Shown: piece after piece, positions 14,579 through 17,047 of the stretch | Layout: each line of letters begins with the position of its first letter | Numbering within the stretch: the first letter of the stretch is position 1 | Assembly (NCBI RefSeq): GCF_014250675.1 | Contig: NZ_JACHTG010000004.1 | Location: forward strand, 1,613,501 to 1,677,500 | Direction: 5' to 3' | Length of the DNA: 64,000 nucleotides | Source: Cetobacterium sp. 8H | Lineage (GTDB): Bacteria; Fusobacteriota; Fusobacteriia; Fusobacteriales; Fusobacteriaceae | Translations under genes and position numbers: made by a program | The notes under the pieces: generated by a model | What the model was told of the DNA's origin: nothing | Databases searched by the model: none | What the model saw: the letters and a program-made list of their open reading frames with translations, nothing else

Positions 14579-15364
14579 CTATTTGAACTTTAAATCTAGC
14601 TCTCTAAAATTTTCATCCATTCCTTTTCCATTAGAAAATTCTTTTTTAATCTTCTTAATAAACATTCCCATTTCATCAGCACTTCCAACTATTCTATTAA
14701 AAATACCTAGATATTCAGTTATAATAGGATTATCTACATCATATGGATATCTCATCAGATGATCAATCTCACTCCAAGCCTCTTCAAATACTGTTCTAAC
14801 CTGTATTTCAACTAATACTTCATCTTGTTTTGTAACAGGAACCCCTATCAAATAGTGAATTGATCTATATCCATGATCTCTAACTATAATTTCACAATCT
14901 AAATCTTGAATAGTATTTTTTAAATCTTGGATATTATAATCTCCTCTTCTAATATTAATTTGTGGAGTCTCTTTGGTATCCCAAAGTTTTGTAATTTCAC
15001 CATGAATACTACGCCAATCATCTTTAAACAAATGTAGTACTCTTATTCCAATGAGGTCAGTTATTATCTCTTTATAATTTTGAACACTGATTCCTCTATC
15101 ATAATACTTTCTACCCTTTCTAATAATTTTTTCAATCAGATGAGCAGCTTTTTTAACCCTTCTTCTAACAGAATGTACCCCGTCGTTATCAATTAATTTA
15201 GATACTATGTGTTCAGCTTCTTTTTCTAAATAAGGAACTAATTTTAGATAATCCGCATAAATTTTCATTAATTCTTCCCAATCTAAACCTGTAGATTCAA
15301 AATATTCCTCAGTTATGCAAAAGGCTTTGAAAAATTCAACCCTATCCATTCTTTCATTTGACAT
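14579..15364 (-). CDS. small alarmone synthetase (RelA/SpoT synthetase domain)
   Basis: Single-domain GTP pyrophosphokinase-like protein of 261 residues, making (p)ppGpp from ATP and GTP or GDP in related enzymes such as YjbM/YwaC. Visible family motifs are RRRVKKAAHLIEKI at the start of the domain, TDLIGIRVL with the conserved Asp and Arg, DHGYRSIHYLI for the G loop, and VEIQVRT with the catalytic Glu followed by AWSEIDH. There is no HD hydrolase and no TGS or ACT domain, so it can only synthesise. It lies 20 nt after the stop of the SIR2-linked gene, with GAGGTG before its ATG, and ends at its own terminator. This two- or three-frame unit could link alarmone output to the SIR2-like protein. 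Confidence 0.9.
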   Translation of the reverse strand: MSNERMDRVEFFKAFCITEEYFESTGLDWEELMKIYADYLKLVPYLEKEAEHIVSKLIDNDGVHSVRRRVKKAAHLIEKIIRKGRKYYDRGISVQNYKEIITDLIGIRVLHLFKDDWRSIHGEITKLWDTKETPQINIRRGDYNIQDLKNTIQDLDCEIIVRDHGYRSIHYLIGVPVTKQDEVLVEIQVRTVFEEAWSEIDHLMRYPYDVDNPIITEYLGIFNRIVGSADEMGMFIKKIKKEFSNGKGMDENFRELDLKFK

Positions 15365-15383: not shown

Positions 15384-16184
15384 TTATTTTCTAGGTATTT
15401 TTTCTAATGAAATTTCACAAGTTTTTCTATAACCAACAACTTTATCTACTTTAATCTCTCTAGATTCAATAGGTGAAGTAGTTATAATTTTTTCTCTTAT
15501 ATTGAAATCGTTTCCTTTCAATATATGTACTCTCTCAACTTCAATAGTGTCGCCTTCTTTTATATCAAGATCATTTAAATCACATCTGAAATTTATCCAG
15601 CTCTGAATAACTTCGTTCTTGCCTAAAAGATTTAGTAAAGCCAGTGAATATAGAGTATTCTCTTCTTGTAATAATTTTTCTTTATGTATTTCTTCTAATC
15701 CTAAAATTTCCTTCTCTAATAAATCTAATTTCATTAGTTCGATTCTATTTTCAAAAGACACTCTACCAGTTAAAAGCTTTCCTATCAGTTCAACCGAGTG
15801 CCCTACAAATACATCCTTTAAAAACTTTATATTAAATACAAATCTTTTAAGATTATTTGTTTTATAAATTTTATAATAGTAATTGTTTAAAATTGGGTTA
15901 AAACTTCCATCCTCTTTTAATTCAATTTCGATACCTAATTTAAACTCTCTATTTTTCATTTCAAAATATTTTTTTCTATTTATTTCAACTATTTTAGTAT
16001 GACACTCTTTTAAATGAGTCTCATTAACTTTTAACTCGGTAACTCCAAAGGTTCTTATTAGATTAAACTTTTCCATATTTTTTATTGTAGAAAATTCTAA
16101 TGGTAATCTATCTAATTTTAAAGAGCTATACCTTATTTCTAAAGCACTCTCTAAAAGTTCTAAATTTCCACCATCTAAATGCAC
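15384..16184 (-). CDS. conserved protein, probable C-terminal half of the SIR2-like protein
   Basis: As a stand-alone gene this would be 266 residues starting at a GTG (16184) with only a poorly spaced AAGGCGG. However, its frame stays open upstream through 16232, into the end of the SIR2-like gene, and that upstream stretch reads as natural protein (AFSVTSDIEVDREPRRV, then the listed start). A one-base backward slip at the A AAA AAG site joins the two into a product of about 554 residues. The domain itself has no motif I can name: it is mixed alpha/beta and rich in beta strands near both ends. It ends 20 nt before the alarmone synthetase. Function unknown. Confidence 0.7.
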   Translation of the reverse strand: MHLDGGNLELLESALEIRYSSLKLDRLPLEFSTIKNMEKFNLIRTFGVTELKVNETHLKECHTKIVEINRKKYFEMKNREFKLGIEIELKEDGSFNPILNNYYYKIYKTNNLKRFVFNIKFLKDVFVGHSVELIGKLLTGRVSFENRIELMKLDLLEKEILGLEEIHKEKLLQEENTLYSLALLNLLGKNEVIQSWINFRCDLNDLDIKEGDTIEVERVHILKGNDFNIREKIITTSPIESREIKVDKVVGYRKTCEISLEKIPRK

Positions 16185-16202
16185 CCGCCTTGGTTCTCTA
16201 TC

Positions 16203-16238
16203 AACTTCAATATCTGAAGTTACCGAAAAAGCTTTTTT
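16203..16238 (-). promoter_or_regulatory. candidate -1 frameshift signal (A AAA AAG plus stem-loop)
   Basis: On the minus strand the SIR2 frame reads GGA AAA AAG, which contains the heptamer A AAA AAG (16238-16232) in the right phase for a -1 slip, as in E. coli dnaX. Ten bases later comes a perfect 7-bp stem (AACTTCA/TGAAGTT, loop of 5; 16203-16221). The 0-frame TAA at 16222-16220 lies inside the stem. A simple one-base deletion in the A run would look the same. Confidence 0.6.
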
Positions 16239-17047
16239 CCAACATATGCCTCTTTCAATTCATTTTCATCTAAAGTTTCAGATGTTAAATAACATCTTAA
16301 CTCTTTAAAAAACTCATCTTCTGTATGAGGTAATAATTTTATTCCTAAATCATTTAACCTCTCTATTGTTTTAGTTTTTAAAACATTAGAATTACTAACG
16401 GCATATATAACGTCTTTTTTATCTGCATTTGCTAAAATCACTTCTAAAATATCTATAAGATCTAAGTTATTTAAGTCTAATCCTAAAATAATAGTCGGAT
16501 AAGTTTCTATCTCACTTTTTATAGAATTAAAGAAATTTTTATAAAAATCCAAAACTTTTAGCTTTCTAAAATCTTGAACTGATACAAAAACTTTTTCATG
16601 CTTCTCAGTATCTCCTAGTATTTTGTAATGCTTTATCTCTCCATTTGAAGATTCTCTTATAACTTCATCTGTTGGTAATATCTTTACTACTCTATTTGAA
16701 TTTATATCGTCTAAAACTATGTCATAGTCCGTTGAAAAAACAGCATTAATTTTGTCACTTTCTGAGAAAACGTTTAATATCTCTTTAGCATCCCTGTTTG
16801 TTTCGTATAAATTTTTGATTTTTTTCAATAATGAACTTCTACTGCTAACAACACCATCTAGATAAACTTGGCTAACCTGAAACAAGGAATTTTCATCTCT
16901 TATATATCCTTTTATGTTTTCCTTCATATCTTTCATCAATAATCTTGCTAACTCTATTCTTGTAGGATATCCTGCTGTTCTTACCAAGAAATCTCCTAAA
17001 AATAGGTTTATTTTCTCTGCTTCATTAAATTTATTGAAAAAACTCAT
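16220..17047 (-). CDS. SIR2-like domain protein, probably catalytically inactive
   Basis: 275 residues with the outline of a bacterial SIR2-like NAD-binding fold: an opening LFLGDFLVRTAGYPTRIELA in place of the usual GAGxS...G.P motif, FSTDYDIVLDD where active enzymes have TTNYD, KILGD where a catalytic His (HG) is expected, and TIILGLDLNNLDLIDIL matching the late G.S..D motif. The catalytic Asn is Asp and the His is missing, so NAD hydrolysis is doubtful. The ATG at 17047 has AGAGGTG 6 nt upstream. It stops at 16220, but the next frame probably continues it by frameshift. Upstream lies the divergent pdxST promoter region. Confidence 0.65.
   Translation of the reverse strand: MSFFNKFNEAEKINLFLGDFLVRTAGYPTRIELARLLMKDMKENIKGYIRDENSLFQVSQVYLDGVVSSRSSLLKKIKNLYETNRDAKEILNVFSESDKINAVFSTDYDIVLDDINSNRVVKILPTDEVIRESSNGEIKHYKILGDTEKHEKVFVSVQDFRKLKVLDFYKNFFNSIKSEIETYPTIILGLDLNNLDLIDILEVILANADKKDVIYAVSNSNVLKTKTIERLNDLGIKLLPHTEDEFFKELRCYLTSETLDENELKEAYVGKKLFR

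Follow-up and report, generated by a model that had tools for sequence, protein, structure and literature searches.

The heptamer A_AAA_AAG is the frameshift motif of E. coli dnaX (PMC3711429), and in IS1 and IS3 elements 72% of the heptamers are either this one or A_AAA_AAA (PMC4066793). We analysed a 64-kb stretch of DNA from Cetobacterium sp. 8H (hereafter the window) in which a gene for a SIR2-like protein is broken at this heptamer. As in bacterial dnaX (tau/gamma), A_AAA_AAG is preceded by an SD-like element about 10 nt upstream and soon followed by a stop codon in one frame; as in Thermus dnaX, a long A run replaces the heptamer in some lineages. However, the gene is a different one, the longer of the two products is here the one that would come from the frameshift, Cetobacterium has a weak downstream stem and the signals turn over between genera. 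With the transposase frameshifts of the IS3 and IS1 families the locus shares the heptamers, the SD or hairpin stimulators and a long fusion product but, unlike them, the SIR2-like gene is no mobile element but single-copy and chromosomal, with conserved neighbours. Few bacterial non-mobile genes are known to carry a conserved programmed -1 frameshift.

The 3' end of ORF1 reads GTT GGA AAA AAG CTT TTT CGG TAA, and ORF2 passes through the heptamer in phase. Rechecking the coordinates confirmed what a sequence-only reading of this DNA had proposed, i.e. an in-phase A_AAA_AAG where the two frames overlap. A -1 slip at this site would join ...YVGKK to AFSVTSDIEVDREPRRV... in a predicted product of 554 aa. 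The same reading had taken a 554-residue fusion to be the true product: the length stands, but the fusion is probably one of two products rather than the only one.

Table. Features of the SIR2-like locus (positions in the window)
Feature	Position	Strand	Remark
ORF1, SIR2-like domain, 275 aa	17047-16220	minus	stop three codons past slip site (LFR*)
ORF2, -1 frame: variable acidic linker and conserved C-terminal domain	16259-15384	minus	291 codons open
Slippery heptamer A_AAA_AAG, in phase	16238-16232	minus	
SD-like GAGG	16249..16252	minus	10 nt upstream of A_AAA_AAG
0-frame stop TAA of ORF1	16220..16222	minus	
7-bp hairpin AACTTCA-GATAT-TGAAGTT	16221-16203	minus	weak, species-specific
RelA/SpoT-domain gene, downstream	14579..15364	minus	PF04607, E 1e-21

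We consider it very likely that the two frames form a single gene, expressed by programmed -1 ribosomal frameshifting at A_AAA_AAG. A ribosome reaching GGA AAA AAG, its P and A sites occupied by tRNA-Lys(UUU), would pause there, and base-pairing between the 16S anti-SD and the GAGG would favour the pause. A fraction of the ribosomes would slip back by one base onto AAA AAA and read on into ORF2, yielding a 554-aa protein made of the SIR2-like domain, the acidic linker and the C-terminal domain, and the remaining ones would stop three codons on and release the 275-aa SIR2-like protein. From the comparisons below we infer that slipping takes place, that it yields the two products in a fixed ratio, and that this ratio matters.

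In E. coli, tRNA-Lys(UUU) is linked to the slipperiness of AAA_AAG. The genome from which the window comes has about 76 tRNAs; the four tRNA-Lys genes found all carry the anticodon UUU, and a tRNA-Lys(CUU) was sought among them without success. Such a UUU-only set is as expected for a shifty A_AAA_AAG. Note that the matches to GACTCTTAATC that were checked as candidates for tRNA-Lys(CUU) in four genomes, the window's included, turned out not to be tRNAs.

Ten homologues from the same genus (g1; genus labels g1-g14 are those of the search tool) were readable, the window's own counted in, and the others are 52-89% identical to the window protein in ORF1. In all ten, ORF1 ends three codons past A_AAA_AAG, with the stop in the same position, and the -1 frame continues for 291 to about 520 codons. 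The nine closest members (window included) are broken at the same heptamer, with a run of exactly six A's in each. In these nine genomes, the GAGG, a feature absent from the sequence-only reading, is invariant and always lies 10 nt before the heptamer, its computed duplex with the 16S anti-SD having an energy of about -5.8 kcal/mol or better; likewise, the block AAGAGGCATATATTGGAAAAAAGCTCTTTCGGTAA is nearly invariant, the flanks having diverged on both sides. The site in the window reads as dnaX-like: A6G plus SD. The sequence-only reading had instead put forward a 7-bp stem with the stop inside it. The stem is real and does start 10 nt after the heptamer, but it holds just part of the stop and is not conserved in the genus (hairpin z of -1.4 in the window and between about -0.3 and +1.4 in the other members). 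A conserved downstream stem in Cetobacterium was rejected on these grounds, z being near zero or positive in most members.

Across the family, ORF1 was matched in 51 of 61 Fusobacteriaceae genomes, nearly always in single copy. The C-terminal domain was searched for by profile in 98 genomes from across the phylum and turned up in the Fusobacteriaceae only. We fetched 52 loci: 32 distinct split homologues, 15 fused ones, four cut by contig ends and one duplicate. Of the fourteen genera sampled, eight retain the split, in proteins that outside the genus are 25-46% identical to that of the window. An in-phase A_AAA_AAG is found in 25 of the 32 distinct split homologues (g1, L060 of g10, g13, g14 and L065 of g7); three have A8-A9 runs in its place (L071, L072 and L077), two have poorer sites and two none that we could recognise. 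In the other split homologues with a recognisable site, the stop lies within 1-4 codons of it. For a single gene, we estimate the chance occurrence of an in-phase AAAAAAG within a given 12-codon overlap at about 1-2%, and recurrence of the in-phase heptamer at the same junction rules out chance. AAAAAAG occurs 114 times on the two strands of the window; it is commoner there than in dinucleotide shuffles (84 expected), perhaps as a result of lysine codons.

The stimulators also differ from genus to genus. SD-like motifs are present 10-15 nt upstream of the site in the nine g1 members, L060 (g10), part of g13 and L077 (g4), and strong hairpins (z -2.3 to -5.5) stand right after the site in g5 and in some g13 genomes. 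Of the eight strong-hairpin genomes, six (four g13 and both g5) lack an SD-like motif, and their hairpins reach -14.8 to -19.0 kcal/mol (z -3.0 to -5.5); SD-like motif and strong hairpin occur together in L062 and L063. In g5, the site is CAA AAA CAG, followed by a strong hairpin of 11 consecutive pairs in L081 and of 14 pairs with one bulge in L080. The stem arms of g13 (GGTAATAATG/CATTATTACC, GGTAGTATC/GATACTACC and GTGGTAGTAT/ATACTACCAC) show changes on both arms, as counted by eye on few sequences. The break persists in distant genera even though slip site and stimulator differ there, which argues for frameshifting over an error. The two g8 junctions (L089 = G018 and L092 = G042) are split, and we found no A run in them and no start codon close by. 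They carry an SD-consensus match, GGTGAT, as well as hairpins close to the stop (those beyond it with z -3 to -4.5), and possibly represent another type of recoding; a dispersed repeat at the g8 junction was considered and rejected.

The 15 fused homologues fall into five separate groups, and five switches between the split and the fused state are required on the tree. Depending on where its root lies, these would be five fusions from a split ancestor or, from a fused one, a gain of the split and several losses. In the fused homologue of G041 (L059), a single frame crosses an A10 run at codons about 267-275 (TTA AAA AAA AAA GCT CTC TCG GTA ACT TCT GAC) and encodes KKKALSVTSD, a peptide that contains the KKALSVTS predicted to result from a -1 slip in Cetobacterium L051-L053. 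G041 thus encodes the predicted hybrid peptide, which provides independent support for the join. If its run were one A shorter, reading would end at a stop in the corresponding position, from which we infer that the short form could be reached by slippage. The gene is out of frame in the congener G020.

Taken as a whole, the family pattern indicates that the break is ancient and has been kept by selection. Our broadest interpretation, a tentative one, is that an ancient, family-wide frameshift sets the proportion of short to long form of a SIR2-like but non-catalytic regulator that is coupled to a RelA/SpoT-type synthetase; the signal would have changed from genus to genus (SD plus A6, hairpin, A9 run, g8 type), and one lineage would be long by default, with the short form obtained via A10 slippage. 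It is possible, although we would not call it likely, that the frameshift is real but non-regulatory, i.e. that a broken gene was rescued by slippage and locked in, with a useless short product; this would refine the frameshift explanation rather than compete with it. Indeed, the long form alone suffices in the five fused groups. By contrast, the invariant SD-like motif, the both-arm changes in the hairpins and the persistence in eight genera suggest a tuned ratio, which is not proof that the short form works. Three observations count against frameshifting itself: the fused homologues indicate that some lineages can do without the short product, the genus has a weak downstream stem, and g8 is split without a known slip site.

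The frames could also be joined at the RNA level, with RNA polymerase adding or dropping an A such that some mRNAs carry the fused frame. Transcriptional realignment typically occurs at An with n > 7 (PMC3711429). Such programmed transcriptional slippage would suit the A9 runs present in six split genomes (three g14, two g13 and one g4) and the A10 run of the fused G041, but it is improbable here: in the window and its close relatives the run is of exactly six A's, which falls short of n > 7, and is accompanied by an SD-like element that the ribosome alone can use. Even less probable is phase variation, in which slipped-strand replication would alter the length of the A run and thereby toggle the long form. 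The A9-A10 runs of some genera are long enough for this, and G041 and G020 do differ in frame; however, the run does not vary among the nine closest Cetobacterium genomes, the six homologues with A9 are all out of frame in the same way, and L066 and L067, whose run is interrupted by a G, are still split.

We find it hard to credit that ORF1 and ORF2 are two genes, the second being started independently or by termination-reinitiation. The window does contain a GTG 38 nt past the ORF1 stop, which the sequence-only reading had deemed poorly placed. It is indeed not conserved, and other members have no start codon near the junction: the first start codon of the L055 ORF2 lies 98 nt beyond the stop, without an SD, and that of L089 has none in about 400 nt. 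Moreover, the -1 frame stays open through the slip site and fused homologues exist. Independent initiation of ORF2 was rejected for want of a conserved start.

Substitution patterns within the genus bear on the integrity of the two halves. dN/dS is 0.05-0.13 for ORF1 and 0.10-0.22 for ORF2 (0.06-0.13 in its conserved C-terminal part), and substitutions in ORF2 fall mostly at third positions of the -1 frame, indicating that purifying selection acts on both frames and that neither half is decaying. An assembly error or a pseudogene, which a single-base break in a homopolymer might bring to mind, is virtually excluded, since the same break is present in independent genomes of many species and, for a pseudogene, since both frames are under purifying selection. 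The loss or gain of one base, real or in the assembly, that had been offered as the alternative is thus refuted by the relatives and the dN/dS values as an explanation of the family pattern; the shared break, the selection on both frames and the split in distant genera favour -1 frameshifting. Synonymous identity is 0.94 in the last 11 codons of ORF1 vs 0.72 in the whole ORF and ranks fifth among 265 overlapping segments, after the start region and one internal stretch: conservation at the end of ORF1 is high, not unique. The CGG codon is used once in eight genes of the window vs 113 times for AGA, yet it is invariant before the ORF1 stop.

As a mechanism, this belongs to a known kind. The papers searched mention neither the gene nor its family-wide frameshift, although an unnamed cluster in the GeneTack lists of PMC3711429 may cover it. 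The family offers several alternative decoding signals at one junction, together with natural fusions, across eight of fourteen genera, and hence a good test bed for how frameshift signals arise, get tuned and disappear, and for the question of a role for the short product. Such genes would escape notice if annotated as two ORFs or as pseudogenes.

As regards the proteins, the SIR2-like identity given to ORF1 was borne out by a match to SIR2_2 (PF13289; E 4e-8, 33.9 bits vs a gathering cut-off of 24.5). Like the NADases of that family, it has an N-terminal SIR2-like domain; its family profile matches ThsA in the PDB over about 210 residues (E 1e-11), and PADLOC called one homologue ThsA, across its SIR2 part. 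Unlike in ThsA, the catalytic His of HGD is replaced (by L, F, M, N or Y) in 47 of 47 aligned members, which makes NAD hydrolysis unlikely; NAD binding is possible. The gene also differs from ThsA in being present in most genomes of the family, the distribution of the ThsA type being patchy. ThsA, of the Thoeris system, carries a SLOG domain at its C-terminus and has ThsB as partner; for the C-terminal domain here, we found no Pfam match, no ThsA chain in a profile search of the PDB and no convincing PDB match (best E 0.07). NCBIfam matches of the naturally fused homologues were weak and sub-threshold, and AlphaFold models of the two halves, for which 3-4 sequences served as input, were of unusably low quality (mean pLDDT 49 and 34). 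Matches of the ORF1 profile outside the Fusobacteriaceae were weak; those in family f4 (G032:C32:2554, G037:C75:34084 and G094:C1:79313) belong to open frames of 476-490 aa, similar in length to ThsA, and are probably separate SIR2 defence proteins.

In most genera, the RelA/SpoT-domain gene directly follows the SIR2-like gene, and the two are probably in the same operon; it was not found directly downstream in g14, g4, g11 and g12. Its position leads us to a guess, and a doubtful one, that the SIR2-like protein, without being catalytic, binds NAD or ADP-ribose and serves as a regulator together with the RelA/SpoT-type alarmone synthetase encoded next to it. Gene order around the pair varies, with a divergent cls upstream in many cases.
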